The notes under the pieces are model-generated. The model searched no databases and was not told where the DNA came from. It saw only the letters and a program-made list of their open reading frames with translations. The translations under genes were made by a program, and so were the position numbers. DNA of 32,143 nucleotides from Syntrophales bacterium (lineage in GTDB: Bacteria > Desulfobacterota > Syntrophia > Syntrophales > JADFWA01): NCBI GenBank assembly GCA_030655775.1, contig JAUSPI010000190.1, positions 1-32,143 of the forward strand, read 5' to 3'. Every line of letters begins with the position of its first letter. Positions within the stretch are counted from its first letter, which is position 1. Positions 394 through 24,273 of this stretch are shown here, piece after piece.

Positions 394-405
394 TTAATCC
401 TTGGG
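386..405. repeat. 20-bp perfect palindrome over the mlaD stop codon
   Basis: CCCAAGGATTAATCCTTGGG is a perfect palindrome without a loop, and the TAA stop of the mlaD-like gene (394-396, minus strand) lies in its centre. No T-run follows on either strand, so it is not a standard intrinsic terminator. It could be a protein binding site or an RNA-end stabiliser. Confidence 0.6.
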
Positions 406-1803
406 AATGGGTGCACTGGTCAGAAGGTATTTGAGATCTTCATCTTCGAACCGTATCGAAACTCCGACGAAGGGTGACTCGTTCCCCTCGTCGCTAAGAA
501 AGTCATCCCACCCTGCCGAGAGATACAGGTGTTTGAAAAGTCTGTATTCGGCAAAGACCTTGAGGTGTGGATCCCTGTCGGTATCAAAATCGAATGCCTC
601 GAAAGTAAACATAAGATCATCATCAAAGGCAAAGTAATCTATTCCCACACCACCGGTGGATTCCAGAAGACCTCCCCGGAGAACGATATCTTTCCATCTC
701 TTGGCGATCTCTACATTGAAGAGGAGCCCATTTTTTTCCCACTCCTCCGTGCGGATAGTTACCCCGTCAGTTGTGGAATCCTTTACCGTTCTTCTCCCCC
801 TCGGATCAGCTACCAAGCCGAGAATGTAAAACTTATCCTCCTTGGGCTGGATCTTCAGCTCGAGGTAGCTTTTTGCATTACTGTTATCAAAGAGGTATTC
901 ACCACGGTAGCTTAAGAATGTCCTGAACTGTTCCGCCTTGGTTACGTATCTGTTGATGCCGGACAGGGTTTCATTAAGATTATCAACCGTTTCATCATCA
1001 TGTATCAGTTTACCGATTGTTCCCTTGCCTTCATTGATCTTATCGGAGATCTCCTGGAGAGAAGCGAGGGTTTTATTGAGCTTGTCGATAGTAGAATCGT
1101 CTTTAACAAGACGTCCAATCGTCCCTTCCCCCTTATTTATCCCCTCCGTTATTGCGCTGAGAGAGGCAAACGTTTTCTCCATCTGTATGGATGCCTCCCT
1201 AAGGCTTGTGATCATCTGAGAGAATTTTTCGTCGTTTTGTCTCACGACCTTGTTCAGGCTTTCAGTGAGATCTCTGGTGTTTCTAACGATACTTTTGAAA
1301 GACTCTTCACCTTCCTCTCCCCCCAGAACCCTGCTCAAGGAAGTGGTCACCACTTTTACGTCATCGGCTATTGAACCGAGTTGTGACAAAAGTCTGTCGA
1401 TATCGGCCGGACGCTGCACATGTGTGATCTCTCCCCCCTCCGCAAGGAAAGGTTCGCCTTTTGTTCCCGGAATAATTTCTATGTATTTCTCTCCCAGAAT
1501 ACCGTGAGTTTTAATAGAAGCCACCGCGTCTTCCTCCAGCTTGACCTCCGGAAGTATCCGCATGGTTACAAGGGCTTTCCCGTCTTTGAGTCTTATCGTT
1601 TCAACTCTTCCCACCTCTACACCGGCGATCTGTACCGAGGCATCCTTCTCCAGCCCTGCCGCGTTGTCAAATACAACATCTACAGGATATCCTTTTTTAA
1701 AACCGAAGCCGTACTCTCCCACCCTGAATGACATGTATCCCAGTATGATTAAGGCCACCAGGACGAACAGACCTACCTTTGCTTCTGAACTAATTGACAA
1801 CAT
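394..1803 (-). CDS. mlaD: MlaD-family MCE domain lipid-transport protein with beta-rich C-terminus
   Basis: Periplasmic substrate-binding component of an MCE (Mla-type) phospholipid transporter, anchored in the inner membrane. One N-terminal membrane helix (about residues 9-26) precedes the MCE domain (about 38-115; VDVVFDNAAGLEKDASVQIAG, then GEKYIEIIPG). A long helical region (about 130-290) contains a motif repeated with a 34-residue period: GTIGRLVKDDSTIDKLN near 227-243 and GTIGKLIHDDETVDNLN near 261-277. Residues about 292-469 alternate aromatic and charged residues in a pattern typical of beta strands. At 469 aa it is far longer than E. coli MlaD (about 180 aa); long versions are known in Desulfobacterota. 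GGAGG lies 6 nt before the ATG. It follows mlaF in the operon. The family call is secure; the nature of the C-terminus is inferred. Confidence 0.9.
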   Translation of the reverse strand: MLSISSEAKVGLFVLVALIILGYMSFRVGEYGFGFKKGYPVDVVFDNAAGLEKDASVQIAGVEVGRVETIRLKDGKALVTMRILPEVKLEEDAVASIKTHGILGEKYIEIIPGTKGEPFLAEGGEITHVQRPADIDRLLSQLGSIADDVKVVTTSLSRVLGGEEGEESFKSIVRNTRDLTESLNKVVRQNDEKFSQMITSLREASIQMEKTFASLSAITEGINKGEGTIGRLVKDDSTIDKLNKTLASLQEISDKINEGKGTIGKLIHDDETVDNLNETLSGINRYVTKAEQFRTFLSYRGEYLFDNSNAKSYLELKIQPKEDKFYILGLVADPRGRRTVKDSTTDGVTIRTEEWEKNGLLFNVEIAKRWKDIVLRGGLLESTGGVGIDYFAFDDDLMFTFEAFDFDTDRDPHLKVFAEYRLFKHLYLSAGWDDFLSDEGNESPFVGVSIRFEDEDLKYLLTSAPIPKD

Positions 1804-1877
1804 CTTACGCCTCCACGTTAGGAGTTAAGAGGTAAGAAGGTAGAATGAAACGTTGTTGTTCACTCGAACCCCTTAAT

Positions 1878-2633
1878 TTATATCACCTTGATCGGACCTT
1901 CGGTATTTCCTGAAAGAAATTGCTCCAGTACCGGATTTTTTGATTCTCTAATCTCTTCGGGTGTCCCGTATTCCACTATCTTGCCTTCATGTAACATTGC
2001 TATCTTGTGACCGATTTTGAAGATGGAAGAGACATCGTGGCTGATGACGATGCTTGTCAGGTTGAAATTTTTCTGGGTATCGATGATCAGGTTGTTTATC
2101 GCTTCGGTCATGATTGGATCAAGGCCCGTTGTGGGCTCATCAAAGAGAACCATCTGGGGGTGCATAGCGATCGCCCTTGCCAGCCCTACCCTTTTTTTCA
2201 TACCGCCGCTCAACTCGGAGGGCATCTTGTCCTCGATGCCGGTGAGTCCAACCGCCCTGAGCCTGTCGGCGACGACTTTTTTTATCTCATCATCCTTCAT
2301 CTTTGTCTGTTCTCTCAAAGGGAATGCCACATTCTCCCCCACATTCATCGAGTCGAAAAGAGCACTTTCCTGGAAGAGCATCCCGAACTTCTTTCTGATT
2401 TCGTTAAGATCCCTGTCATTGAGGGTGGTAATATCGGTGCCACCTATTAAGACTTGACCGCTGTCCGGTTTGAGGAGCCTTATGATATGCTTCAGGAGAA
2501 CGCTCTTCCCCCCTCCGCTCCTCCCGATGATCACTGTTGTCTTCCCCTCTTCGATAGCGAGATTAACCCCGTCCAGGACTTTTTGTTCTCTGAACGATTT
2601 ATGAAGATCAATAATTTCAATTATATTTGCCAT
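1878..2633 (-). CDS. mlaF: ABC transporter ATP-binding protein MlaF
   Basis: Cytoplasmic ATPase that powers MCE-type phospholipid transport together with the MlaE permease and MlaD. The 251 aa length is normal. Walker A is GRSGGGKS (about 37-44), the signature is LSGGMKKRVGLARAIAMHP, Walker B is MVLFDEPTTGLDP and the switch histidine is in VISHD. The SGGMKKR signature is typical of MlaF proteins. Its ATG lies one base after the TGA of the upstream permease gene (TGATATG), indicating translational coupling. The mlaD-like gene follows 74 bp downstream on the same strand. Confidence 0.96.
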   Translation of the reverse strand: MANIIEIIDLHKSFREQKVLDGVNLAIEEGKTTVIIGRSGGGKSVLLKHIIRLLKPDSGQVLIGGTDITTLNDRDLNEIRKKFGMLFQESALFDSMNVGENVAFPLREQTKMKDDEIKKVVADRLRAVGLTGIEDKMPSELSGGMKKRVGLARAIAMHPQMVLFDEPTTGLDPIMTEAINNLIIDTQKNFNLTSIVISHDVSSIFKIGHKIAMLHEGKIVEYGTPEEIRESKNPVLEQFLSGNTEGPIKVI

Positions 2634-2634
2634 A

Positions 2635-3414
2635 TCAGAACATAATAGCGGTGAGGAAATAATCGCTTACCAGTATGGTTATCGATGCCAATACCACCGC
2701 CTCTGTTGTCGCTTTCCCCACGCCTTCTGCACCCCCGCTGGTATTGAACCCCTTGTAACAGCCGACCAGAGACAGGATCAGGCCAAAGACCGCCGCCTTA
2801 ATCAATCCGTTATAAATATCATCGAGTCCCACGTACCTGGTAATATTTTTGACAAAGATACCTGAATTGATATTCAAAAGGACAACTCCCACAAAGTACC
2901 CGCCCAGTATTCCCACGAAATCTGACACTATGGTTAAAACAGGGACCATAATAACCCCTGCAATGACTCTCGGAACGATGAGATGTTTGACGGGATTTGT
3001 GGCCATGACGGAGAGGGCATCGATCTGTTCAGTCACCCGCATGGTTCCCAGCTCCGCAGCCATGGCGGAACCAGCCCGGGCTGTTACCATAAGGGACGTG
3101 AGGACTGGTCCGAGTTCTCTGGTCATACCCAGGGCTACCGTGGAACCGACCAGGCTCTCCGCACTGAACATTCTGAAACCATGATATCCCTGGAGAGCCA
3201 GAACCATGCCGGTAAATGTGCCGGTCAGGACAACGACAAAGATTGATTTAACACCGACAAATTCCATCTGCTTGAAGATGTTCCGGAGCTTTAAAGGGGG
3301 CCTGATCATCCAGCTTAAGACAGAAATGAAAAGGAGTAGGAGCTTCCCCATCTCCTCGACATTTTGCAGGACTGCCCTTCCCAGATTATCGATGGCGGTA
3401 GAAACTTTATTCAT
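2635..3414 (-). CDS. mlaE: MlaE-family ABC transporter permease
   Basis: Inner-membrane permease of the MCE/Mla phospholipid transporter. The 259 aa protein has several hydrophobic helices and typical family segments (FTGMVLALQGYHGFRMFSAE; VTARAGSAMAAELGTMRVTEQIDAL; GLIKAAVFGLILSLVGCYKGF). The conserved AELGTMRVTEQIDAL loop is diagnostic. It is the first gene of a tightly packed mlaE-mlaF-mlaD set. The start chosen is the first ATG; no strong Shine-Dalgarno is visible before it. The ~130 bp upstream is low-complexity (GGTTAAGGGTTAAGGG) and shows no clear promoter. Confidence 0.95.
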   Translation of the reverse strand: MNKVSTAIDNLGRAVLQNVEEMGKLLLLFISVLSWMIRPPLKLRNIFKQMEFVGVKSIFVVVLTGTFTGMVLALQGYHGFRMFSAESLVGSTVALGMTRELGPVLTSLMVTARAGSAMAAELGTMRVTEQIDALSVMATNPVKHLIVPRVIAGVIMVPVLTIVSDFVGILGGYFVGVVLLNINSGIFVKNITRYVGLDDIYNGLIKAAVFGLILSLVGCYKGFNTSGGAEGVGKATTEAVVLASITILVSDYFLTAIMF

Positions 3415-3544: not shown

Positions 3545-4612
3545 TTATAATGGTCCCCTCTTCTTTGCATGGGCTTCCAGCGATAATTGAATGACCCGGT
3601 CGATCAAGCCCGATTGGTCTATTCCGGAAGCGGCTGCCTGGTGAAAGAGTACAGTCGAAGGAGTCATACCGGGAAGAGTATTGGGCTCGAGGACCGCCAC
3701 CCGTCCATTCTTTCTCACAAACATGTCAATCCTTGAATATACTTTCAACCCAAGGGCACGATATGTATCCACAGCTACTTTCTGTATCTCTTTCAATTTT
3801 TCTTCCGGAAGTCTGGCGGGGGTCTTATTTTCACCCTGGCCATAGAGAAATTTGTCTTCGAGGGAAAGGATATCTTTCGTAGGAATGGTTTCTGAAGGTG
3901 TCAGGGGGAGAGGATCATCATTTCCTATAACCCCGCATGTAACTTCAGTCCCGTCGATAAATTCTTCAACCAGTACCGTGTTGTCCCATTCGAAGGCAGA
4001 GATAAGGGCGTCAGGAATTCCTTCTGTTGACATCACCTTCTTGACAGAGGTGCTGCATCCTTCCCTTGTGGGTTTAACCACACAGGGGAACCCTATCTCT
4101 TCATCAATTCTTTTAAGAAACACCTCTCTGTCCTCGTTATCCCACCTTCTTCTGGTCACCGGCACGGTTTTCGGTACATCTATCCCGTTCATTGCGAGTA
4201 CGTTTCTGGAAGTATATTTGTCTATACCCAGGGCGGAACCGAGTACGCCGCAGCCGGTGTAAGGAATTTTCAAAAGTTCCAGCAGGCCTTGCAAACATCC
4301 GTCCTCTCCATATTTCCCATGAAGACCCACATATACGAAGTCTACACGCTCTTTCAGCTCTTCATAAGGAATAGGAATGGCCTCCTCCTCCAGATCTACT
4401 TCAATATCACTGGTGCTATTTCGCATCAGCAACTTAACGGGTATCTCCCAGAAGCCACCCTGGCTGTCCATAAAAACAGGCATTGGATCGTACTTTTCAC
4501 GACTGATCTTGCTGAAGATATTCCTACCACTTTCCAGGGAAACCTCCTTTTCCGAGGACATTCCCCCCATAATGATTCCGACTCTCAATTTATTAGCGTC
4601 TTTGACGTCCAT
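3545..4612 (-). CDS. D-alanine-D-alanine ligase paralogue with altered active site (possible D-Ala-D-lactate type)
   Basis: ATP-grasp ligase of the Ddl family, joining D-alanine to a second D-amino or D-hydroxy acid for the peptidoglycan stem. The 355 aa length is normal. N-terminal GGMSSEKEVSL carries Glu21 (E. coli DdlB Glu15), HGKYGEDGCLQGLLEL is family-typical, Lys180 binds ATP (VVKPTREG) and EPNTLPGMTPS binds metal. Aligned by eye to DdlB, Ser150 becomes Cys186 (KPTREGCSTSV) and the omega-loop Tyr216 becomes Phe255 (LEDKFLYG). A Phe at this position is known from Leuconostoc-type depsipeptide ligases and from the DdlB Y216F mutant, which gains D-Ala-D-Lac activity. It is the second of two tandem ddl genes after an alanine racemase. 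Family is certain, changed substrate is inferred, and reduced activity is an alternative. Confidence 0.93.
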   Translation of the reverse strand: MDVKDANKLRVGIIMGGMSSEKEVSLESGRNIFSKISREKYDPMPVFMDSQGGFWEIPVKLLMRNSTSDIEVDLEEEAIPIPYEELKERVDFVYVGLHGKYGEDGCLQGLLELLKIPYTGCGVLGSALGIDKYTSRNVLAMNGIDVPKTVPVTRRRWDNEDREVFLKRIDEEIGFPCVVKPTREGCSTSVKKVMSTEGIPDALISAFEWDNTVLVEEFIDGTEVTCGVIGNDDPLPLTPSETIPTKDILSLEDKFLYGQGENKTPARLPEEKLKEIQKVAVDTYRALGLKVYSRIDMFVRKNGRVAVLEPNTLPGMTPSTVLFHQAAASGIDQSGLIDRVIQLSLEAHAKKRGPL

Positions 4613-4679
4613 TTTCTTTCCAATGCGTTAGTTGTGCACGACTATAATGTTATTTGGTTGTTTTGTAAAGTATGAACTT

Positions 4680-5741
4680 TTATCCCTGCAATGCCCCTTT
4701 CTTTTCTTTATGAATTTTGAGAGAAATTTCAATAAGCCTTGATATTATCATGGAGGGGAGCATACCGGCGCAGGCTGCCTGTTCGAAAAAAAACGAAGAA
4801 GGTGCCATGCCGGACGATGAATTAGGGTCTGTGATAAGCACCCGACCGTCTTTTAAAACGAATCCGTCAATCCTGCCATAGGACTTGAATCCTAATGCCT
4901 TGAAGGCTTGTACGGCTTCCTCTTTGATCTGTTCCGCAACGTCGGCTGGAATATTTTTCGGAGGGGTGAACTTTCTGCATCTCCCAGGCATATACTTGTC
5001 ATCGTATGTGTAGAACTCGCTTTGGGGATAAATCTCCGTCAGCGCCAAAGGAAGAGGCTTGTCATTCTCTTCCAGGATGATGCACGAAAATTCTATACCA
5101 TCCAGATACTCCTCTACAAGAACAACGTTATCCCATTTGAGAGCTTCAGTAATTCCCCTCTCAAGGGAACTCGAATTATTTACTATTGTTACCCCTATAC
5201 TCGATCCTTCCCTTGTTGGTTTTGTGATGAAGGGAAGTCCAAATCTGTTTATCAATTTTTTTTCAACACTTTCTTTGTTTTCTTTCCACTCTTTCTCTTG
5301 GATTATCATGCTTTCGGGCACACCGATACCGTAAAACTTGAGAATTTTCTGTTGGATATGCTTATCCATTCCGAGAGCCGATGCCAATACTCCCGGTCCT
5401 GTGTAGGGGATACGCAGCAGTTCAAGAAGACCCTGGATGCACCCATCGTCTCCGTATTTTCCATGCAGGGAAATGAAAGCAAAATCGATTTCATCTTTAA
5501 GTCCCTCATAGGATATCCTTCTTGCCTTTGTGTCAAGCTGTTCCGAGATATCAGTGGTTGTGTTTTGAGATACAAGCTGCCAGGGGAGTATCCATAATCT
5601 TGCGGCATCATCCATGAATATTGGTATTCCCTCATACTTTTCCCTGTCAATGTTGTCATAGACATTCCTGCCGCTGTTTAAGGAAACCTCTTTTTCCGAG
5701 GACATACCGCCAAAGATGATACCGACTCTTAAATTTCCCAT
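4680..5741 (-). CDS. ddl: D-alanine-D-alanine ligase (canonical active site)
   Basis: Cytoplasmic ATP-grasp enzyme making D-Ala-D-Ala for peptidoglycan. From the ATG the protein is 353 aa; a TTG one codon earlier is possible but the ATG fits better after AAAGG. The Glu-Ser-Tyr triad of E. coli DdlB is intact: Glu16 (GGMSSEKEVSLNSG), Ser180 (TKPTREGSSIGV) and Tyr250 in the omega loop (YDDKYMPG). The ATP lysine is Lys174. The C-terminal metal site reads ITDPNSSSGMAPSS, with Asp where Glu is usual. It lies between the alanine racemase and a second, divergent ddl on the same strand, so it probably supplies the normal housekeeping dipeptide. Confidence 0.95.
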   Translation of the reverse strand: MGNLRVGIIFGGMSSEKEVSLNSGRNVYDNIDREKYEGIPIFMDDAARLWILPWQLVSQNTTTDISEQLDTKARRISYEGLKDEIDFAFISLHGKYGDDGCIQGLLELLRIPYTGPGVLASALGMDKHIQQKILKFYGIGVPESMIIQEKEWKENKESVEKKLINRFGLPFITKPTREGSSIGVTIVNNSSSLERGITEALKWDNVVLVEEYLDGIEFSCIILEENDKPLPLALTEIYPQSEFYTYDDKYMPGRCRKFTPPKNIPADVAEQIKEEAVQAFKALGFKSYGRIDGFVLKDGRVLITDPNSSSGMAPSSFFFEQAACAGMLPSMIISRLIEISLKIHKEKKGALQG

Positions 5742-5802: not shown

Positions 5803-7740
5803 TTATAAATCCCAGATAAATGTTACCCCGCTGTTCGGGAATATCCATTCATCGTCGCTGATCTTCAACTTTATCGATTTACCCTCCTCTTTGACCACCT
5901 CAGGATAGGGATGTTTTCCGGCAAAGAAACTTATCTCTTTTACATTCTTCAATTTTGCGCCGTCGTAGTTAAAAGAGATTTCAAGTCCTCTTGTGGGGTA
6001 AACGAGATATACAGAAAAAAGATTATTAGCCTTGAACTGCTTGGTTATAATTTCAATCTCCATCTTAACCGGTTTGTTCAAATTCTTTTTTAGCGTGTTC
6101 CCCCCGCACCAGACCTCGTATCCTCTGTCTGTTTCTTCCTTTCTGATAATAGTGACATCCTCGCTGTTGACACGAACACGATTTACATTGAAGTCACTTT
6201 CCTTGAACAGGCCTTCCCCCCGATTGAGAAGCCATCTGTACTCACATCTTTCATCCTCGAAAAGGGCGGAGAGTTGTTTGTTATTTAAAGCACACCCGAT
6301 GATGAATGTGTTATTTCTAAGGGTTTTGGTATATTCTATATGGGTTGTTACCGTGAAATAGTCTTTCGTAAGATCGTCATCGGTCACATTTATATCGTAT
6401 TTAAAATCTGTCCTTAATTCGAGCTGCCGGTCCTTTTTCCCGAAGAGCGTTTCAAACATCTCATAGTAGATTGCGTTGCCCAATTCCGTATCCCGTGCTC
6501 TCGTCTGGAAGCAGTTTCGGATTATATTGTCTATCCGTGATATGGATTTTTCCTCATCGGGGATGTATATTCGCCTCAATCGTGGTTCTACGGTATCGGT
6601 TTTCCCCTTATGTACAAATACCCGGGGAGCCCTCTTGCCCAGCGCGCATAATATTTCATAGCTTATTGTCTTTGCTTTTTTGGCAATCTCATTGGCGGAG
6701 ATGTATTCGCTTTCCTGTTTTCCCATCAAGACGATCTCGTCTCCTACCTGGCAATCCGGTATATCCGTTACATCTATGGTGCACATATCCATGGAGACAC
6801 GCCCCACAACAGGGACTCTTGTCCCCCGTATCAGGGCATCTCCCTGATTTGAGAGTATCCAACCGTAACCGTCTCCGTATCCGACGGGAATGGTTGCTAT
6901 CCTGGTCGGTTTTTCCGTAACGTAAGTTCTCCCATAACCAATGCTATAACCCTTGGGAAAATCTTTTAGAAGAACCACGCTTGTCTTGAAGCTCATGACC
7001 GAAGCGAGGTCTGCTTTTGATTCTGTGTCCGGGGATGGGTAAATACCATAAGACATAAGACCGGGCCGCACCATATCAAGACTGAATTGTGGAAAGTTAA
7101 GGAGTCCACCGCTGTTGGACATATGTTTTTGGGGAATATGTATATTGTTTTCCTCCAGCATTTCGATAAGTTCCTTGAACAGTTTCCACTGCGCCTGGTT
7201 ATAGTCTTCATCCTCAACTTCACTTGATGAGAAGTGCGAAAATATGCCCTCTATTGTGATGTTGGGAAAGTCAAGGATTTCACTAATGATATTGAAGGCC
7301 TCTTGATGAGTAGTTCCACCCCTTCCCATACCTGTATCCACTTCTATATGAATTGGGGCTTTGACGGCCGCTTTTGCATAACTTTTTTGTAACTCCCGGG
7401 CAAAACCGAGATCGGAAATCGATGGAGTCAAATTGTATTTGATTATCTCATTTATTTCGGAAACGGTGGCCGGACTCATTATGAGTATCGGTGCGTTTAT
7501 CCCGCTTACCCGCAGTTGTACTCCTTCATCTGCATTGGCAACTCCGAGAAAGGAGGCGCCGTTTTTCAGAGCAACGTTGGAAATTTCAATTGCTCCGTGA
7601 CCATAGGCGTCTGCCTTGACTACCTGTAAAACCTTGACATCGGGGCCAACAATCTTCTTTATTTCGCCCAGGTTGTGGCTGAAGTTTTCGAGGTCAACCT
7701 CCACCCAGCTTCTGTATTTCAGGTTTTCTCTTAATGACAT
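5803..7740 (-). CDS. alr: Alanine racemase with uncharacterised C-terminal extension
   Basis: PLP-dependent racemase interconverting L- and D-alanine. Residues 1-375 are a complete fold-type III racemase: PLP lysine Lys42 in VVKADAYGHG, HIEVDTGMGRGG, the catalytic tyrosine near Tyr269 (SIGYGRTY), VGYGDGYGW, and the second-domain motif GRVSMDMCTIDVTD. Usual family length is 360-390 aa, but this protein is 645 aa. The extra region (about 390-645) begins with a predicted helical part (396-432) and continues as a beta-rich part ending ISDDEWIFPNSGVTFIWDL; I do not recognise it. GGGAG precedes the ATG. The two ddl genes follow at once, which supports a role in D-alanine supply. I see no in-frame stop or frameshift at the junction, so this looks like a real fusion. 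Confidence 0.93.
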   Translation of the reverse strand: MSLRENLKYRSWVEVDLENFSHNLGEIKKIVGPDVKVLQVVKADAYGHGAIEISNVALKNGASFLGVANADEGVQLRVSGINAPILIMSPATVSEINEIIKYNLTPSISDLGFARELQKSYAKAAVKAPIHIEVDTGMGRGGTTHQEAFNIISEILDFPNITIEGIFSHFSSSEVEDEDYNQAQWKLFKELIEMLEENNIHIPQKHMSNSGGLLNFPQFSLDMVRPGLMSYGIYPSPDTESKADLASVMSFKTSVVLLKDFPKGYSIGYGRTYVTEKPTRIATIPVGYGDGYGWILSNQGDALIRGTRVPVVGRVSMDMCTIDVTDIPDCQVGDEIVLMGKQESEYISANEIAKKAKTISYEILCALGKRAPRVFVHKGKTDTVEPRLRRIYIPDEEKSISRIDNIIRNCFQTRARDTELGNAIYYEMFETLFGKKDRQLELRTDFKYDINVTDDDLTKDYFTVTTHIEYTKTLRNNTFIIGCALNNKQLSALFEDERCEYRWLLNRGEGLFKESDFNVNRVRVNSEDVTIIRKEETDRGYEVWCGGNTLKKNLNKPVKMEIEIITKQFKANNLFSVYLVYPTRGLEISFNYDGAKLKNVKEISFFAGKHPYPEVVKEEGKSIKLKISDDEWIFPNSGVTFIWDL

Positions 7741-10222: not shown

Positions 10223-10298
<76 letters not shown>

Positions 10299-10354
10299 GG
10301 GAGTATAAAAGGGATCCGCCATATTTAATTGGACCCGTCAGTGATTAGCTTATG

Positions 10355-10450
10355 TTTCTCCGATCCGCGTCTTCTAAAGGATTTGTCTATGAAGAGCGGA
10401 CAGTGGGTATAACCGGAAACAGTTGTGCCTCCCGTGTTTGGAAAGGAGAG
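10355..10450 (+). promoter_or_regulatory. Structured leader, candidate Moco/Tuco riboswitch upstream of formate dehydrogenase
   Basis: The leader between the tRNA and fdhA folds well. TCCGC (10364-10368) pairs with GCGGA (10396-10400), and CTTC (10371-10374) with GAAG (10391-10394). An outer CTCC near 10358-10361 can pair with GGAG at 10445-10448. A second domain has GGG (10405-10407) opposite CCC (10431-10433), an AACCGGAAAC stretch, and GTGCCTCCC at 10425-10433. This arrangement, with CTCCG at the 5' side and GTGCCTCCC at the 3' side, resembles what I remember of the molybdenum-cofactor RNA motif, and the gene downstream encodes a Mo/W-pterin enzyme. The helices are seen; the riboswitch identity is inferred. 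Confidence 0.45.
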
Positions 10451-10501
10451 TAAATAAGAGGGTATTTTCCTAACTAAACTTTAAGAAAGGAGCGCATTGT
10501 T

Positions 10502-13500
10502 ATGAAAGTTACCAGAAGAGGTTTCTTGAAGATCTCCGGTGTGGCGTTAATGGCAAGCGGTATCGGAATCAGTCTGAAACCGGTATTAGCTCATGCCGAA
10601 CCACTGAAGATCCAGTATGCTAAAGAGACCACTACGATCTGTCCTTACTGTTCTGTTGGATGCGGCATAATTGTCGCCACTCAGAAGGGTAAGGTCATCA
10701 ACACGGAAGGTGATCCCGATCACCCCATTAACAGGGGGTCTCTCTGCACCAAGGGAGGGTCTATTTACCAGCTGTCGGTCAATAAAAACCGGCTTGACAA
10801 ACCACTTTACCGGGCACCTTATTCCGATAAGTGGGAGGAAAAATCCTGGAAATGGATGATTGACAGGATTGCCAAAAATGTAAAGAAGAGTCGTGATAAG
10901 AGTTTCAAGGAAAGAAATGCCAAGGGACAGGTAGTCAACCGAACAGACGGGATAGCTTCGGTTGGCAGTGCCGCCATGGACAATGAAGAGTGTTTCATCT
11001 ATCAAAAATTCTTAAGGGGGTTGGGCCTGACTTATATTGAACACCAGGCCCGTATCTGACACAGCGCAACTGTTGCGGCTCTGGCAGAGTCGTTCGGACG
11101 CGGTGCGATGACCAATCACTGGATTGACATTAGAAACAGTGATTGTATTTTGGCAATGGGCAGTAACCCCGCATCAAACCATCCCGTTTCCTTTAAGTAT
11201 GTTACACAGGCAATGGAGAATGGCGCTAAACTTATCAGTGTTGATCCAAGATTTACCCAGACCTCCGCGAAAGCAGACATCTTCGCTTCTCTGAGGTCAG
11301 GTTCAGATATAGCCTTTCTTGGAGGCATGATTAAATATATTCTGGACAATAACCTCATTCAAAAAGAGTATGTCGTCAATTACACAAATGCTTCTTTCCT
11401 GGTAAATCCGAAAATTAAACTTCCTGGGGACAATAAGGGTGTCTTCTCCGGGCTCACCGACGGCAAGTATGATAAATCCACATGGTCATTCCAGACGGAT
11501 GCCAACGGTGTCGTTAAAAAAGATCAAAGCCTGAAGGATCCTGACTGTGTATACCAGCTCTTGAATAAACATTATTCAAGGTATAACCCCGATACCGTAT
11601 CCAACATTACCGGTACTCCGGAGGAAAAACTTCTTGAGGTTTACAAGGAATACTCAAAAACCGGCAAGGTAGGAAAAGCTGGGACTATCATGTATGCCAT
11701 GGGGTGGACGCAGCATACGGTGGGTGTCCAGAACATCAGGACAATGGCCATAATCCAGCTCCTCCTTGGAAACATGGGACTTGCCGGCGGTGGTGTCAAC
11801 GCTTTAAGGGGTGAGTCCAATGTTCAGGGATCTACAGATCAATGTCTGCTCTTTCACATCATCCCCGGGTATCTCAAGACACCAAAGGCGTCTCTTCCTA
11901 CATTGAAAGCGTACAATGATAAATATACGCCTACAACAAAGGAGCCGAATAGTCTGAACTGGTGGAGCAACTATCCGAAATACATAGCAAGTCTCCTGAG
12001 GGCGCATTACGGGACAGATGTCAGTCTGGAAGAGGCCTATAGCTATCTGCCCAAGCTGGATGACGGTGTAGATTACTCCTGGCTGAGTCTCTTTGATGCA
12101 ATGTACAAAGGAAAATTCACCGGATTCTTCTCATGGGGGCAGAATCCTGCCTGCAGCGGTGCCAGTTCCAACAAAACAAGACAGGCTATGACCAAACTGG
12201 ACTGGATGGTCAATGTCAACATCTTTGACAGTGAGACAGGTTCCTTCTGGAAGGGACCCGGTATGGATCCGAAGAAGATCAAGACAGAGGTCTTCATGCT
12301 TCCATGTTCTGCCTCAATTGAAAAAGAAGGCAGTATTACCAACAGCGGCCGCTGGATGCAGTGGAGATACAAGGCGGTTAATTCACCCGGAGTCGCCATG
12401 CCTGATGGTGAAATCATTGCCGAGCTCTTCTACAAGGTAAAAGAGCTTTACGAAAAAGAAGGCGGGCCTCTGAAAGAGGCTATTACAAAAATGACCTGGG
12501 AGTACGGTCCTAAAGGTGCTGACGGCAAGGTCAAGCATCTGGATGCCCACTATATTGCCAAGGAAATCAACGGGTACTTCCTCGAAGACAAGGAGATCAA
12601 AGGGAAGCTCTACAAGAAAGGCGAACTGGTGCCAAGTTTTGCCTTTCTCCAGGATGACGGTTCGACCTCTTCCGGAAACTGGCTGTACTGTAATTCCTAT
12701 ACTGAAAAAGGGAATATGGCGGCACGGCGCGGAGGCAAGGATGAATCCGGCATAGGCCTTTACTCCGATTGGTCATGGTGCTGGCCTGTCAACCGCAGGA
12801 TCATCTACAATGGCGCTTCAGTTGATCTGAATGGAAACCCCTGGGACAAAGAGCATCCCGTAATCAAGTGGGATGGTTCCAAGTGGACAGGAGATGTTCC
12901 TGACGGTGTTGCAAAGCCTGGTTCAGGGAGACCTCCCTTCATCATGAAAACCCATGGTGTCGGTAGTATTTTTGGACCGGGACTTGCTGATGGACCATTT
13001 CCAGAACATTATGAGCCTTTGGAATGCCCCGTAGAAAAGAACTTTATGTCACCTCAAATGGTCAACCCGACTATCAAGAGATGGGATAAAGAGGGAACAG
13101 GGACAAATGTGGATGCAAGGGCAACCTGCGATCCAAGATTTCCCTTTGTCTGTTCTACCTATCGAGTTAGTGAGCACTGGCAGACTGGTCTCATGACAAG
13201 ATGGTGTCCCTGGCTTGCAGAGATGCAGCCTGAAATGTTTGTCGAGATGAGTCAAGAGCTTGCCAAGATGAAGGACATCAAAAATGGTGATCGGACTATT
13301 GTAAAATCGATCAGGGGCGAAGTCGATGCCGTGGCTATCGTCACAGCGAGATTCAAACCCTTTAAACTGAACGGCACTGTCGTTCATCAGGTCGGTATTC
13401 CGTGGCACTATGGATGGGTGACAACGAACATGAGGAAGTATGTCCAGGGCGACAAGAAACCTGAGGTTTTTACCTCTGGTGATTCAGCTAATCTGCTTAC

Positions 13501-13582
13501 ACCATTCATCGGAGATGCCAATACCATGATACCTGAGAGCAAGGCCTTCATGGTAAATGTTGAGAAGAAGGGGGTGAAATAA
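10502..13582 (+). CDS. fdnG: Formate dehydrogenase alpha subunit, selenocysteine-containing (TGA 11057-11059 read as Sec)
   Basis: Catalytic Mo/W-bis-pterin subunit oxidising formate to CO2, exported by Tat and so acting outside the cytoplasmic membrane. The signal contains R5-R6-GFLK. A [4Fe-4S] site follows with Cys47, Cys50, Cys54 and Cys82 (CPYCSVGCG...LCTKG). The frame is interrupted only by TGA at residue 186, in the context EHQARI-U-HSATVAALAESFGRG, the formate dehydrogenase active site (E. coli FdnG Sec196-His197). Downstream, GRGAMTNHW, MGSNPASNHPVSFKY and the C-terminal pterin-binding domain are intact. Total length is 1026 aa, close to FdnG (1015). AAGGAG sits 7 nt before the ATG. 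The beta subunit starts directly after its stop codon. Related tungsten enzymes share this architecture. Confidence 0.95.
11070..11087 (+). promoter_or_regulatory. Candidate bacterial SECIS hairpin after the Sec codon
   Basis: Ten nt after the in-frame TGA, CTGTT (11070-11074) can pair with GGCAG (11083-11087), including G-T wobbles, around the loop GCGGCTCT. E. coli SECIS elements also lie about 11 nt after UGA and carry a GGUCU-like apex. The stem is short and the fit modest, so the gene context supports Sec decoding more strongly than the hairpin does. Confidence 0.45.
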
Positions 13583-15869: not shown

Positions 15870-16316
15870 TTAGAAATCGAAACTAACATTAATCTTGAAA
15901 TTCTGTTTAGCAGGCATGTTGAGTATATCAGACATGCCAGTTTTTTCGCTAATTTCCGTCAGCGATTTTTGTATCTCTTCTTCGGTGGAAGCCATGAAAG
16001 TAAACCAGACATTGTATTCGTGGTTTCTTCTGTAATTATGGGTTACCCCCGGATAAGAATTGACGATTTCGACAAATTCTTTCAGCTTCTCCTCTGAGAC
16101 CCGAGCGGCACAGAGAGTGCTTGCAAAACCAAGTTTTCGGGTGTCAAACACTGCGCCCATTCTGCGAATGATCCCTGTCTCCTTCAGCTTTTTGACACGT
16201 TTCAGGACTTCATCCTCACCGATGCCGATTTTTTTAGCCAGAACGGTAAAGGGTTTTACATCAATCGGAAAATCGGTCTGGATAATATTAAGAATTTTTT
16301 TGTCTATTGGATCCAT
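15870..16316 (-). CDS. Siroheme decarboxylase subunit (AhbA/AhbB, AsnC-like)
   Basis: Subunit of the enzyme that decarboxylates siroheme to 12,18-didecarboxysiroheme in the alternative heme pathway. The 148 aa have an N-terminal winged-helix part (DPIDKKILNIIQTDFPID...LKETGIIRRMGAVFDTRKLGF) and a ferredoxin-like AsnC/RAM part containing GVTHNYRRNHEYNVWFT, the hallmark of AhbA/AhbB/NirDLGH proteins. These are enzymes, not DNA-binding regulators, despite their fold. It follows the AhbD gene but is separated from it by repeat element D, and no Shine-Dalgarno is visible at its ATG. The known enzyme is an AhbA-AhbB heterodimer; only one subunit is present here, and I cannot say which it is. Confidence 0.9.
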   Translation of the reverse strand: MDPIDKKILNIIQTDFPIDVKPFTVLAKKIGIGEDEVLKRVKKLKETGIIRRMGAVFDTRKLGFASTLCAARVSEEKLKEFVEIVNSYPGVTHNYRRNHEYNVWFTFMASTEEEIQKSLTEISEKTGMSDILNMPAKQNFKINVSFDF

Positions 16317-16375
16317 GATAAAGTTTCATGTTTCAGGTTTCAAGACTTTAAACTTTAGAGGCTGGCTTTGCTATG

Positions 16376-16596
16376 AAAGCGTACCCCCTTGAATTAACTT
16401 TGGAATAAAATCGTACCGAAAATATGTAGTTTAAATTGATTCATAGCAATCAAAGTAACATTCTTCTATCCCCTTATTTTATAATGCTAAAACCATACAA
16501 TCATGTCGTTTAAAAAGTTTTTAAAAGTACCTTCTGTATTGAGCATTGTAATAATTCAAAAATAAAGGGGGGTACGCTTTTATTCCAAAGTTAGCA
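16376..16596. repeat. Inverted-repeat element D between ahbD and the AhbA/B gene
   Basis: AAAGCGTACCCCCTT (16376-16390) is repeated inverted as AAAGGGGGGTACGCTTT (16564-16580). A second inverted pair, TTTGGAATAAAATCGTACC (about 16399-16417) against GGTACGCTTTTATTCCAAA (16571-16589), partly overlaps it. The ~150 bp between is AT-rich and without an open frame. It looks like a small non-autonomous element or an IS remnant. No clear target duplication was found. Confidence 0.65.
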
Positions 16597-17688
16597 TTTA
16601 GACTTTAAACTTGAAACCTTCTTTTTCGGTTCATAAATACAAAATGGTTCCTCAGCCAGGTAGTCTCCCGTGATTTCATAAGCGCGTGCACGGCAACCGC
16701 CGCACACCTTAATAAATTCGCACCTGCCGCATTTCCCCTTGTACTTACTCAAATCCCTCAGATCAGTAAAAACAGGGGAATTATTCCAAACATCTTCCAA
16801 GCTTTTTTCTTTGAGTTGACCACAGTCAATCTCAAGAAAACCACAAGGCTGCACCTGCCCCGTATGGGAAATAAAACAGAACGAAATCCCCCCCATACAG
16901 CCTCTGGTCATGGCATTCAATGAATCTCTTTCTTCCCTTGATTCCGCCGGGGGTTCCTTTCTTCGCTGATGGAAAATGCGGAAGTAGTGAGGAGCGCAGG
17001 TAGCTTTGAGCTGAATCGGGCAAGTGAAACTCTGTTCATAAAACCAGTTCAACGTTTCTTCATAATCTTGCGGTTGTATCTCCTGATCAGCCATCTCTCT
17101 TCCCCTCCCTGTGGGTACAAGGAGAAAGATGTGGTGGGCGGCGGCACCCAGCCCGATGGCCAGATTCAGAATTTCCTGAATCTGATCCAGATTGACCCGG
17201 GTTATAGTGGTATTGATCTGAAATTCCATTCCGGCTTTTTTCATGGCTGTAATTCCGGCCATCGCTTCCTCAAAGGCGCCGGATACCCCGCGGAAGGCAT
17301 CATGACTTTCCGCATCCAGACCATCAATACTGATACTGACCCTTTTGATTCCTGATTCAAGCATCTTTACGGCAATTTCCTCGGTTACCAGTGTCCCGTT
17401 CGTGGCCAGCACCATACGCAACCCCTTTTTATCTCCATAAGAAGCAATCTCAAAGATATCCTCCCGCATGAGTGGTTCACCACCGGTCAGGATAATCACC
17501 GGTTTGCTGAAAGATGCTATGTTGTCAACGAGCTTCAAACATTGATCAGTGGTGAGTTCCCCTTCATAGGGGCCGTATTCTGATGAGGCCCGGCAGTGTA
17601 TACAGGAGAGGTTACAGCTCCTGGTTACTTCCCAGGCAATCATGCGAAGTGTAGGGGGTAAGATTAAAGATTGTTTATTTGAAACCAT
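16591..17688 (-). CDS. ahbD: Radical SAM heme synthase AhbD (Fe-coproporphyrin III decarboxylase)
   Basis: Final enzyme of the siroheme-dependent pathway, oxidatively decarboxylating two propionates of Fe-coproporphyrin III to make heme b. The radical SAM site is CNLSCIHC, with ILTGGEPLMRED following. The C-terminal SPASM-like region binds extra Fe-S clusters (CMGGISFC; PCGFLEIDC; CGRCEFIKVCGGCRARAYEITGDYLAEEPFC). I chose the ATG at 17688 (365 aa, beginning MVSNKQSL); a TTG at 17736 would add 16 residues encoded by repeat-like DNA. The last codons (VSSLKSKC) are read from the dispersed TTTAAAGTCTAAA repeat. It lies directly after hemB. AhbD rather than AhbC is inferred from the Cys pattern and YEITGDYLAEEP. 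Confidence 0.9.
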   Translation of the reverse strand: MVSNKQSLILPPTLRMIAWEVTRSCNLSCIHCRASSEYGPYEGELTTDQCLKLVDNIASFSKPVIILTGGEPLMREDIFEIASYGDKKGLRMVLATNGTLVTEEIAVKMLESGIKRVSISIDGLDAESHDAFRGVSGAFEEAMAGITAMKKAGMEFQINTTITRVNLDQIQEILNLAIGLGAAAHHIFLLVPTGRGREMADQEIQPQDYEETLNWFYEQSFTCPIQLKATCAPHYFRIFHQRRKEPPAESREERDSLNAMTRGCMGGISFCFISHTGQVQPCGFLEIDCGQLKEKSLEDVWNNSPVFTDLRDLSKYKGKCGRCEFIKVCGGCRARAYEITGDYLAEEPFCIYEPKKKVSSLKSKC

Positions 17689-17754
17689 TACTGATAACCC
17701 TATCAGGCAGGGATAAACCCCGCCCCTAATCTTCAAAACTTTAAACTCGAAACT

Positions 17755-18726
17755 CTAAACCAGCAGTTTCGCCGCATCCCGGGCGAAATAGGTGATAATA
17801 ATATCCGCCCCCGCCCTCTTTATTGATGTGAGGGATTCCATCATCGCCGTTTCTTCATCCAGCCAGCCAAGATTTGCAGCAGCCTTGATCATAGCAAACT
17901 CCCCGCTGACATTGTAGGCCGCTATCGGCAGGTCAAATTCCTCCTTAGCCCTGTAGATAATATCGAGATAAAGAAGCGCAGGCTTAATCATAATAATATC
18001 TGCGCCCTCTTCAACATCGAGGGTTATCTCCCGGATAGCCTCATCGGAATTGGCCGGATCCATCTGGTATGATTTCCTGTCCCCAAATTGCGGTGCACCT
18101 TCGGCGGCTTCGCGAAAGGGTCCGTAAAAGCATGAGGCATACTTGGCTGAATAGGCCATAATGGGAAGGGCATCATATCCTTCCTCATCGAGGGCATCCC
18201 TGATTGCCCCGACACCGCCGTCCATCATACCGGAAGGGGCTATCATATCCGCACCGGCCTTCGCCTGAGACAGGGCTGTTTCTGCGAGGATTTCCAGGGT
18301 GGCATCATTGTCCACATCGTTGTCTTTAATAGTGCCGCAATGACCGTGGCTGGTATATTCACAGAGACATACGTCACAAATTACAATGATATCAGGCACC
18401 TTCTCCTTAATTTTCCTTGTTGCCTGCTGGATAATCCCATCGTCGGCAAATGCACCTGAACCGACTTCGTCTTTCTTGTCGGGAATGCCGAAAAGAAGTA
18501 CCGCGGGAATACCGACATCTTTTGTTTTTTGCACTTCTTTCACCAGATGATCGACAGACATCTGAAAATTGCCCGGCATGGAGTTGATAGGTTTCTTGAC
18601 ATTACGGCCAGAGGTTACAAAGAGGGGATAAACAAGGTCATCAACGGATAATTGTGTCTCCCGTATCATCCTCCTGAAATTTGCGTTTTTCCTCAATCTC
18701 CTTGGCCTGTAAACTGGATAATACAT
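17755..18726 (-). CDS. hemB: Delta-aminolevulinic acid dehydratase (porphobilinogen synthase)
   Basis: Condenses two 5-aminolevulinate molecules to porphobilinogen. The 323 aa length is typical. The Zn-binding cysteine cluster [15 protein letters not shown] shows the zinc-dependent type. The two Schiff-base lysines are in [15 protein letters not shown] and [10 protein letters not shown], and [17 protein letters not shown] is also conserved. AGGAG lies 6 nt before the ATG. It is downstream of ahbC with element A between, and upstream of ahbD. Its TAG stop sits within the repeated GTTTAGAGTTTCGAG sequence. Confidence 0.97.
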
Positions 18727-18740
18727 GGTCTCACTCCTGA

Positions 18741-18786
18741 GTTTAAAGTTTCGAGTTTAAAGTTTAAAGTCTAAAGCTTGAAGTTC
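18741..18786. repeat. Short AT repeat cluster (TTTAAAGT words)
   Basis: Tandem variants of GTTTAAAGTTTCGAG and TTTAAAGTCTAAAGC occur just upstream of hemB. The same words recur at 16341-16356, 16598-16618, 17732-17756 and 19029-19048, always at gene borders of the heme run. No coding role is seen here. Confidence 0.6.
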
Positions 18787-18811
18787 ATTTATGTTTGTTT
18801 CCTTTGATACT

Positions 18812-19022
18812 TGATGTATTTGTAAAAAGCCACTTTTCTTCGCTCAGAACCATTTTGGGGATGCTGTTATTGCCCGGCTAAAAATCTAAAACTCGTGCTA
18901 ACGCACTCAAACAGTTAGATTTTCTTAACGCCGGTCACTACCACCATCTTTTCCCCAAAATGCTTGAATGACTTGCGTGATTCTTCGAATGCGCTTCGAA
19001 AAAACTTTTTACGAATACATCA
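18812..19022. mobile_element. MITE-like element A, copy 2 (211 bp, TSD TACT)
   Basis: The left end TGATGTATTTGTAAAAAG and the right end (reverse complement TGATGTATTCGTAAAAAG) match at 17 of 18 positions. TACT flanks it at 18808-18811 and 19023-19026, a perfect 4-bp target duplication. It has the same length and hairpin layout as the copy at 15041-15251, with the central ~105 bp almost identical. The ends differ between copies, yet left and right change together. It has no open frame. It separates ahbC from hemB. Confidence 0.92.
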
Positions 19023-19038
19023 TACTTGAATTTAGACT

Positions 19039-20220
19039 TTAAACTTTTATTTCCTCATCTGTCAGATAACAGGCCGGGTCAGGTGTCCAGATGTCACCTG
19101 ATGCCGCCTCAGACCTCGCCCGAAAATTGCCCCCGCAGATATCGAGCCAGCGGCAGGTTGCGCATCTCCCCTTCACGTGAGGTTTTTTATCTTTCAATTT
19201 TGCCATCAATTCATTTGATGTATCCAGCCATATCTCACTGAAGGGACGTTTTCTGACATTACCGAAGGACACATTTCTCCAGAACTGGTCTGCGTGGACC
19301 TCACCATCCCAGCTCACACACCCGATACCATTTCCGGAACTGTTTCCCTCATTCATCATGAGAAGCTCAAAGACTTCGCCGGCTCTTTGGGGGTCTTCCT
19401 TTAACAAGCGCAAATATACATAAGGGCCATCGGCATGGTTGTCCACGGTGAGTATCTCTTTTTCCATTCCACGATGAAAAAGATCTCTTGTCCTGTCCAT
19501 GATAATATCTACCACTTTTCTCGTTTCATCGTGGGACAGATCTTCATCAATCAACTCGGAGCCGCGTCCCGCATAGACGAGGTGATAAAAACATGCCCGG
19601 GGGATTTCTCTTTCCTCAATGAAGTCAAAAATGGAAGGGATTTCGGAGGAATTTTTCCTGCTTATGGTAAAGCGCACTCCCACCTTTATACCCTCATCCT
19701 GGCAGAGCCTGATTCCTTTCAGGGTGGCATCAAAAGCCCCACTAACCCCCCTGAACCTGTCATGTGTTTCCTTCATTCCATCGAGGCTCACGCCAACATA
19801 GGAAAGGCCGATTTCTCCAAAGATCTTTGCCAGGTTTTTTGTCATCAGTGTGCCGTTTGTTGAAATCACTGCCCGCATACCCTTATCCACAGCGAACCGG
19901 ATAAGCTCGGGAAGATCCTTTCTTATCAATGGTTCACCGCCGGAAAAGAGAATAACCGGACATCCGAACGAGGCAAGGTCAGATATCAGTTCTTTCCCTT
20001 CATCGGTATTCAATTCATCGCTGTAGCGTATATTTTGAGAACTCGAGTAACAGTGGATGCATTTAAGGTTGCATCTTCTGGTTGCATTCCAGACGACCAC
20101 AGGCTTCTTGTCAATGGAAAACTGGAGGAGATGTGAAGGAAGATCCTCGGAGTCCCTCCCATAACGAAGGACATCTGATGGCTCCACAGCCCCGCAATAT
20201 AGCTTTGAAATTCCAATCAT
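19039..20220 (-). CDS. ahbC: Radical SAM 12,18-didecarboxysiroheme deacetylase AhbC
   Basis: Removes the two acetate side chains of didecarboxysiroheme to give Fe-coproporphyrin III. The 393 aa open with GISKLYCG and then VVWNATRRCNLKCIHCYSSS, the radical SAM CxxxCxxC site, followed by ILFSGGEPLIRKDLPEL. The C-terminal cluster region is CVSWDGEVHADQFW...CATCRWLDICGGNFRARSEAASGDIWTPDPAC. The NLKCIHCYSSS and HADQFW motifs fit AhbC better than AhbD. Its ATG overlaps the TGA of the cobA-hemD gene by four bases (ATGA), indicating translational coupling. Element A follows its stop codon. Confidence 0.93.
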   Translation of the reverse strand: MIGISKLYCGAVEPSDVLRYGRDSEDLPSHLLQFSIDKKPVVVWNATRRCNLKCIHCYSSSQNIRYSDELNTDEGKELISDLASFGCPVILFSGGEPLIRKDLPELIRFAVDKGMRAVISTNGTLMTKNLAKIFGEIGLSYVGVSLDGMKETHDRFRGVSGAFDATLKGIRLCQDEGIKVGVRFTISRKNSSEIPSIFDFIEEREIPRACFYHLVYAGRGSELIDEDLSHDETRKVVDIIMDRTRDLFHRGMEKEILTVDNHADGPYVYLRLLKEDPQRAGEVFELLMMNEGNSSGNGIGCVSWDGEVHADQFWRNVSFGNVRKRPFSEIWLDTSNELMAKLKDKKPHVKGRCATCRWLDICGGNFRARSEAASGDIWTPDPACYLTDEEIKV

Positions 20221-21731
20221 AATCTAAAATCCTCAATCAGTGCATCTACAAGGCCGGAAATAGTATATGTCTCCGGCATGATGTCGGTCTTGAACCCGAG
20301 TTTTTCCGTGGCAGCGGCCGTCACAGGCCCTATGCACGCTGTCTTTATGCTTTCGGGAAGACGGAAGTCCTCTCCCATAATATTCAGGAAGTTAATCGCA
20401 GTGGAAGGACTGGTGAAGGTAATGACGTCAACCTTGTTTTGCTCTATCAATTCACAAAGCTCTGTCCTGTCTCTTCCCGAACTAACTGTTCTGTAAGCTA
20501 CCGCGACGTCTACGTTTGCACCGAGTTTTGAAAGGCCCTCCGGAATGACGTCACTGGCAATTTCCGCCCTCGGCAGGAGAATGTTCTTGTCCCTGATTTT
20601 CTGTTCCTGAAATTTTTCCAGAACAGCTTCGGATGTGTAATCATCGGGGATGATATCGATGCGGATCCCGTAATTTTCCACGGCAGCAGAGGTAGCGGGT
20701 CCTATGGCACATATCCTGATTCCCTTGAGGTCTCTTATGTCCTTATTCAAATCATCAAGGCGCTTGAAGAAAAACTTAACCCCGTTTACACTGGTAAATA
20801 CAATCCAGTGGTATTTTTCTATATTTTCTATCGCCCGGTCCAGATCATCGAAATTGTCGGGCGGCATAATCTTTATCGTGGGGCAATAGATAACTCGAGC
20901 CCCCGCTCTATGCAAGATATCTGCAAATTCTCCTGCCTGTTCCACGGGTCTCGTAATGACGACTCCTTTACCGAAGAGGGGCTTCTTTTCAAACCAGTTC
21001 AGGGATTCTCTCAAATTTACCACATTTCCTACGACAAATATCGCCGGGGGTGAAAAATTTTTTTCTTCCGCTATCTCTACTATATTTCGAAGAGTTCCCG
21101 TCAGGGTTTCTTGATCCGCCGTTGTTCCCCACCTTATCAGGGCAGCCGGTGTCTCTGAAGCCCTCCCGTTGCCGACCAGGTTTTCCACGATATGCCTCAA
21201 GTTCTTGACACCCATCAAGAAAACAACGGTTCCGATAGCGGAGATGCTCTCCCAGTCTATATCGCTTATACCCTTTGTAGGATCTTCATGACCGGTTACA
21301 AAGGCAACTGTGGATGTATAATCCCGGTGTGTCAGGGGTATCCCTGCATAGGCGGGAACGGCTACTGCAGAGGTGACACCGGGAACCACCTCAAAAGGAA
21401 TACCTTCTTTTGAAAACATTTCTGCTTCTTCTCCACCCCTTCCGAAGATAAAGGGATCTCCCCCTTTAAGTCTGGCAACGACATTCCCGCTTTTTGCCTC
21501 CTTTACAAGGAGATTATTCAGTTCATCCTGGGCAATGGTATGGTTTCCGCCCTTTTTACCCACGTAGACCAGCCGGGCATTTTCCGCCGTATGGTTGAGA
21601 AGTTCACTGCTGACAAGATAATCATAGAAAACTACGTTGGCCTCCTGCAGGTATTGTAACCCTCTGACCGTCATAAGCCCGGGATCTCCTGGTCCAGCAC
21701 CGATAATATATATCTTGCCCATCTTCTTCAT
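20217..21731 (-). CDS. cobA-hemD: Fused uroporphyrinogen-III methyltransferase / uroporphyrinogen-III synthase
   Basis: A two-enzyme protein: HemD closes hydroxymethylbilane to uroporphyrinogen III, and CobA methylates that to precorrin-2, sending flux to siroheme. Residues about 5-245 are the SAM methyltransferase ([66 protein letters not shown]). Residues about 255-504 are the synthase ([62 protein letters not shown]). The 504 aa length is normal for this fusion, common in Desulfobacterota and clostridia. It lies between hemC and ahbC. The N-terminal part does not include the CysG dehydrogenase/ferrochelatase domain. Confidence 0.96.
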
Positions 21732-21876
21732 TAGTTTAAGACTCCGTTTTTAGCACACTGCATTGCTTTCGGTTATTGTTGCGTTAAAAACCTTAGTATT
21801 TCTAAAACAGGGGAATTTAGCTGTCATTTCTTATAATGTAGGGTTAAAGCCCTGTGTAGCGCTGATAGCTGATCGC

Positions 21877-22803: not shown

Positions 22804-22830
22804 GTGTCACCTCCGTTCCCCCTCCCCTAA

Positions 22831-22849
22831 CCCCTCCTACCAGGAGGGG
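22831..22849. promoter_or_regulatory. GC-rich hairpin in the hemC leader
   Basis: CCCCTCCT (22831-22838) pairs perfectly with AGGAGGGG (22842-22849) around a 3-nt loop, about 20 nt upstream of the hemC ribosome binding site on the minus strand. The AGGAGGGG arm is itself Shine-Dalgarno-like, so the fold could influence initiation at the unusual ATT start. The structure is seen; the role is inferred. Confidence 0.5.
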
Positions 22850-22867
22850 CACCCAGAAGGTCTCTTT

Positions 22868-22893
22868 GCACGGACAAACAAGTTTGTCCATGC
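22868..22893. repeat. Near-perfect palindrome between hemA and hemC
   Basis: GGACAAAC-AA-GTTTGTCC (22872-22889) is a perfect inverted repeat, extended outward by GCA/TGC with one mismatch pair. It could be an operator or a dispersed palindromic repeat. It lies in the 126-bp hemA-hemC gap, on the minus strand ahead of the leader hairpin. Confidence 0.55.
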
Positions 22894-22929
22894 CACCCTT
22901 CCATTCTTAAGGGAAAAGATAAAGATGGA

Positions 22930-24198: not shown

Positions 24199-24273
24199 TA
24201 GCACAAAAATAGAATCCAGAAATCAGGAGTCAGAACAAAAAGATTATATTGATAATATATTCCGATTTCCTTC

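Follow-up and report, generated by a model that had tools for sequence, protein, structure and literature searches.

Two Ddl paralogues encoded side by side next to the alanine racemase gene alr, one of them with Cys and Phe in place of the active-site Ser and Tyr, raise the question of whether this locus specifies two ligases or the two parts of one. Ddl, a validated antibiotic target (D-cycloserine), is described as a self-sufficient homodimer. The locus lies in a stretch of 32,143 nucleotides from a Syntrophales genome, all of which was analysed and which is here called the window. As originally predicted, ddl1 and ddl2 are tandem full-length paralogues adjoining alr: both are intact ORFs on the minus strand, and both contain the two Ddl Pfam domains (PF01820 and PF07478) above the gathering score (Table 1).

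Table 1. Positions of the ligase genes, their neighbours and the diagnostic codons in the window
Feature	Position	Strand	Basis or remark
alr, alanine racemase with a C-terminal extension of ~270 aa	5803..7740	-	TIGR00492, 379 bits
ddl1, Ddl paralogue, 353 aa, directly downstream of alr	4680..5741	-	PF07478, 158 bits; PF01820, 102 bits
ddl2, Ddl paralogue, 355 aa	3545..4612	-	PF07478, 166 bits; PF01820, 98 bits
Cys186 codon of ddl2 (DdlB Ser150 position)	4055..4057	-	sequence and alignment
Phe255 codon of ddl2 (DdlB Tyr216 position), omega loop LSLEDKFLYGQGENKTPAR	3848..3850	-	sequence and alignment
Asp305 codon of ddl1 (DdlB Glu270, Mg ligand)	4827..4829	-	alignment
Ser310 codon of ddl1 (DdlB Pro275, beside oxyanion Gly276)	4812..4814	-	alignment
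mlaE-mlaF-mlaD-like lipid transport genes, downstream of ddl2	394..3414	-	conserved ddl2 neighbours in Syntrophales

The gene order conserved in Syntrophales is alr-ddl1-(OMP)-ddl2. The alr extension (5803-6612, minus strand) has no Pfam match and is conserved in the Syntrophales alr genes that adjoin the ddl pair. The gene found between ddl1 and ddl2 in many Syntrophales (L039 4194-4964 and its equivalents) encodes a secreted, barrel-like protein of ~260 aa; a role for it in the pair was rejected, as it resembles an outer-membrane barrel with a weak YfaZ match below the cut-off and is absent in the window. The mlaE-mlaF-mlaD-like genes are not regarded as belonging to the ligase.

Active-site residues were assigned by alignment to E. 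coli DdlB and DdlA, VanA and the Leuconostoc enzyme (sequence checked against PDB 1ehi), with ddl1 residues counted from the ATG at 5741. The alignment bears out the predicted equivalents of DdlB Glu15, Ser150 and Tyr216, which are E16, S180 and Y250 in ddl1 and E21, C186 and F255 in ddl2. The canonical strand that includes the Mg ligand Glu270 and the oxyanion Gly276 reads (L/N)E(A/V/I)NT(S/L)PG(M/F)T. In ddl1 it reads TDPNSSSGMA, with E270 changed to D (D305), P275 to S (S310), T278 to A and L282 to F. In ddl2 this strand is intact (E309-N311-P314-G315, with T320 at the S281 equivalent), and the equivalents of DdlB Ser150, Gly153, Tyr210, Tyr212 and Tyr216 are all lost. Canonical dipeptide ligases combine Glu15-Ser150-Tyr216 with NTxPG; ddl1 has the triad without NTxPG, and ddl2 has the reverse. 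Among K97, K144, E180, E187, D257, E270, N272 and G276, all are present in ddl2 of the window and only E270 (Asp) is missing from ddl1. The pair thus shares with canonical DdlA and DdlB (PDB 2dln and 3i12) the fold, both Pfam domains and K97, K144, E180, E187, D257, R255 and K215, but differs from the canonical homodimer in consisting of two diverged paralogues with losses at 150/153/210/212/216 in ddl2 and 270/275/278 in ddl1.

These reciprocal changes are nearly invariant in the sequences compared. When 65 ddl1-type sequences, taken from genes that are paired, fused or split, are set against 62 ddl2-type sequences, Pro275 and Glu270 are each found in 0% versus 100%, Ser150 in 100% versus 3%, and Tyr216 in 100% versus 0%. 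Position 270 is Asp in 65/65 ddl1-type sequences, and position 275 is Ser in 58, Ala in 4, Val in 2 and Cys in 1. The ddl2 type has Cys150 in 60 of the 62 sequences, Phe216 in all and Thr281 in 61; Gly153 is mostly replaced by Ala, Tyr210 by Leu, and Tyr212 by Leu, Val, Ile or Met. Leu282 is replaced by Val or Cys in ddl2, so that the D-Ala2 pocket is altered at both 281 and 282. Gly276 is Ala in 7/62. Among 24 Syntrophales ddl2 orthologues, the others being 69-86% identical to ddl2, the Glu, Cys and Phe are invariant, which rules out chance or a sequencing artefact behind Cys and Phe, and the lid LSLEDKFLYGQGENKTPAR is common to them nearly letter for letter. The Ser-to-Cys change, previously regarded as an oddity that could not be placed, therefore marks the ddl2 clade almost without exception.

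In a maximum-likelihood tree, ddl1 with the N halves of fused genes (see below) and ddl2 with the C halves form sister clades (SH-aLRT 96 each, 100 jointly), and the ordinary Ddls, VanA and the Leuconostoc enzyme lie on the opposite side of the tree (support 100). The branches of these reference ligases are long, which makes their own exact placement unsure and leaves the split of the pair unaffected. The two sister clades point to a single old duplication that preceded the spread of the pair, and suggest that the Leuconostoc-like Phe arose separately.

This bears directly on the possibility that the locus encodes two independent ligases, ddl1 for D-Ala-D-Ala and ddl2 for D-Ala-D-Lac (or D-Ala-D-Ser), so that the stem peptide would be mixed or switchable. 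Such an arrangement is suggested by F255 of ddl2, since a Phe in place of Tyr216 is the known dipeptide/depsipeptide switch in lactic acid bacteria (PMC5996685), as the original prediction pointed out, and by the altered D-Ala2 pocket (S281T, L282V/C). LmDdl of Leuconostoc (PDB 1ehi) has the same Phe but keeps Ser150, Val152, Gly153 and YDYNNKF, whereas the corresponding segments of ddl2 are CSTS and LSLEDKF, and ddl2 falls in a different clade. VanA and VanB (D-Ala-D-Lac) and VanC and VanG (D-Ala-D-Ser) are members of the same superfamily as ddl2, but VanA is without the Lys/Tyr of the 215/216 loop, and ddl2 misses the NCBIfam cut-offs by hundreds of bits, scoring 198 for D-Ala-D-Lac ligases (cut-off 550), 185 for D-Ser ligases (cut-off 520) and 225 for VanG (cut-off 495). 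As had been noted, neither vanH nor vanX is seen in the window; the VanX family (PF01427) is also absent from the whole genome and from most pair-bearing relatives, and occurs more often in those relatives that have an ordinary Ddl. The tree, the loop, the cut-offs and the lack of VanX together speak against a place for ddl2 in the Leuconostoc type, as originally proposed, or in the Van type, and both memberships were rejected. Of the proposed combination of a normal and a depsipeptide-type ligase, the triad residues and the Phe stand, but the Mg/oxyanion strand of ddl1 is remodelled, so that ddl1 is not a normal ligase either. As the pairs are, in addition, kept or replaced as a unit and fused, which is unexpected for an optional second product, two independent ligases are unlikely.

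The co-retention of the pair is evident in Syntrophales. Counted by hand from the table of 108 genomes with completeness of at least 90%, 61 have pair genes, 41 have a single ordinary Ddl and 6 have neither at the threshold. Both members were recovered in 58 of the 61 pair-bearing genomes, and the other three (G018, G036 and G107) are fragmented assemblies. In G006, G016 and G025 both members are retained though far apart; an apparent ddl1 fusion in G006 (an 836-codon frame) was discarded because the frame merely overlaps alr. Several third Ddl matches in pair-bearing genomes are gene fragments, and the only possible case of the pair together with another Ddl is G108 (6% contamination), which has an extra Ddl-like gene of 332 codons with 30% identity. 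Replacement can be seen within genus g21, where G037 has alr-ddl1-OMP-ddl2 and G021 has the same alr, with the length of its extension kept, followed by an ordinary ddl.

The genome from which the window comes (3.04 Mb, 99% complete) contains no further true Ddl; four of its six family matches are more distant ATP-grasp genes. A second tandem of distant Ddl-like ATP-grasp genes (C237, L007 6324-10198) is flanked on one side by a radical SAM gene of the lysine-2,3-aminomutase (KamA) kind and on the other by a GNAT acetyltransferase gene. It was rejected as a hidden third or rescue Ddl, since its two genes are more distantly related members of the ATP-grasp group.

Within a Desulfobacterota-wide sample of 394 genomes, the pair is found in Syntrophales only. 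Elsewhere, it is found in Chloroflexota (L069, L070 and L076, and unlinked in L081 and L135), where a 400-genome sample shows it to be rare, and in Methylomirabilota (L078). No ordinary Ddl was found in these particular genomes, and in L076 and L081 one pair member is close to a MurF-Alr fusion gene. Whether separate or fused, the pair is kept together across four bacterial phyla.

The fused form is found in Cytophagales. The contig L111 encodes ddl1 followed by ddl2 in one protein of 896 aa, each half with its own marks; the genome, of 0.8 Mb, has no other true Ddl. A full-length fusion of ~890 residues is present in about 118 of 292 Cytophagales genomes (hand count of uninterrupted matches), and in about a dozen more the match is interrupted, with both pieces in the same long frame; the fusion is rare across Bacteroidota as a whole (8/396 sampled genomes). 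In about eight small Cytophagales genomes the two halves are encoded separately, often at distant sites. In L199 and L202, from Cytophagales genomes of ~0.7 Mb, the split ddl2-type genes have Ser150 and Gly153 back and keep Phe216. Taken with the Syntrophales data, these results suggest that the pair behaves as a unit: its members are retained jointly, are joined in one protein in Cytophagales, and give way together to one ordinary Ddl.

Another Cytophagales group has a shorter protein made up of a complete ddl1 half and a decayed remnant (~85-150 aa) of the ddl2 N-terminal domain, recognizable by homology up to E 1e-25; no other strong Ddl match was found in these genomes. In all of the solo ddl1 genes sampled (11/11), Pro275 and Leu282 are present and Asp270 stays. 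The solo genes form one clade, indicating one event, which might lie inside or beside the fusions (AU p 0.27 and 0.55). This lineage connects the strand changes of ddl1 with the presence of a partner, and indicates that Asp270 by itself is probably compatible with function.

Structure models were made of ddl2 and of a fusion. The ddl2 model (pLDDT 79.7, pTM 0.82) has DdlA as its best structure match; its confidence is low in the omega loop (249-260), so that Phe255 is not placed by the model. In the AlphaFold2 model of a natural fusion of 897 residues, built with 60 homologues (pLDDT 87, pTM 0.85), each half resembles Ddl and the predicted structure is consistent with a fixed arrangement of the two halves, the high pTM denoting a defined arrangement within the fusion and saying nothing on binding of the separate proteins. 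In known Ddl dimers, the active sites lie within one subunit, which leaves the need for both copies unexplained and counts against a two-part ligase. A dimeric arrangement does, however, recur among Ddl enzymes (PMC6899670), in favour of such a ligase.

The sequences themselves show a duplication, reciprocal changes in the two copies, their co-retention and natural fusion, and the exchange of the pair for a single Ddl. On this comparative evidence, ddl1 and ddl2 are probably two non-identical subunits, or fused parts, of one D-Ala-D-Ala ligase, of which ddl2 would be the catalytic one. An ordinary homodimer-forming Ddl would have been duplicated once, and the copies would have diverged reciprocally until both were needed. 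From the sequences we infer a physical complex, in which ddl2 is probably the catalysing subunit because no canonical ATP or Mg2+ residue is missing from it and the oxyanion glycine is nearly always present; its lid would have been rebuilt (Cys150, Ala/Gly/Ser153, Leu210, Leu212, Phe216). ddl1, with its triad and lid kept and its Mg/D-Ala2 strand rebuilt (Asp270, Ser275, Phe282), would probably support or activate ddl2. Since one ordinary Ddl can substitute for the pair, what the complex makes and passes to MurF is most likely ordinary D-Ala-D-Ala.

The roles might conversely be exchanged in such a heteromer, with ddl1 catalysing by its intact triad and ddl2 as a helper. The canonical triad and lid would fit this, and solo ddl1, truncated as it is and with no second strong Ddl match beside it in several Cytophagales genomes, evidently can work with Asp270. 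However, ddl1 with a partner has lost Pro275 in 65/65 sequences and, in single lineages, also Lys144 (K144L in L135), Asn272 (N272H in L078) or His63 (H63N/Y in two split genes), whereas ddl2 keeps all of these, which makes a catalytic ddl1 quite unlikely. The survival of solo ddl1 also bears on the two-subunit ligase itself: it implies that ddl1 can be a working ligase, and counts against a need for two parts, as does G994, a Cytophagales genome of 0.7 Mb with a ddl2-type gene only and no ddl1 half found. A further alternative is a neofunctionalised pair acting in sequence, with a product other than the dipeptide used by MurF, e.g. a D-amino-acid peptide that is longer or of another kind. Judging from their residues, both halves could bind ATP, and in the large subunit of carbamoyl-phosphate synthase there is a precedent for two steps carried out by ATP-grasp halves in tandem. 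As an ordinary Ddl stands in for the pair in related genomes, and pair-bearing genomes are without another true Ddl to feed MurF, a sequential pathway is very improbable.

If the two diverged copies must act together, as in the favoured two-subunit ligase, the annotation of Ddl sequences would change; the Phe rule would misread ddl2 as a vancomycin-resistance-type ligase. The naturally separated parts would then allow the role of the triad to be tested. In the open-access literature, to which the search was confined (subscription papers lay outside it), no description of a two-part bacterial Ddl, heterodimeric or fused, was found. The large subunit of carbamoyl-phosphate synthase likewise has tandem diverged ATP-grasp halves in one chain, but it catalyses a different reaction and is an analogy only. 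Throughout plants, DDL is described as a fusion of two DDL enzymes (PMC9954125), and moss Ddl is reported to be closest to those of Fibrobacteres-Chlorobi-Bacteroidetes bacteria (PMC9434261). The plastid DDL of Arabidopsis and Physcomitrium is thus, by description, a two-DDL fusion as in Cytophagales, but is eukaryotic; kinship with the pair family is a possible lead. The pair could provide a bacterial model for this unexplained fusion. The most extended form of the proposal, i.e. an obligate two-subunit Ddl in four phyla, in which a Cys/Phe catalytic subunit depends on a triad-keeping partner without the catalytic strand, and from whose family the plant plastid fusion descended, is possible but doubtful.

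The window also contains genes outside the ligase locus. A formate dehydrogenase alpha subunit is encoded at 10502-13582 on the plus strand with an in-frame TGA (selenocysteine 186), and upstream of it are a Moco/tungsten riboswitch (10347-10464) and a tRNA gene (10223-10295). At 15870-24204 on the minus strand, translations indicate a haem/tetrapyrrole gene cluster, including genes for glutamyl-tRNA reductase, hydroxymethylbilane synthase, uroporphyrinogen methyltransferase/synthase, a HemB-like protein, two radical SAM proteins and an AsnC-type regulator.
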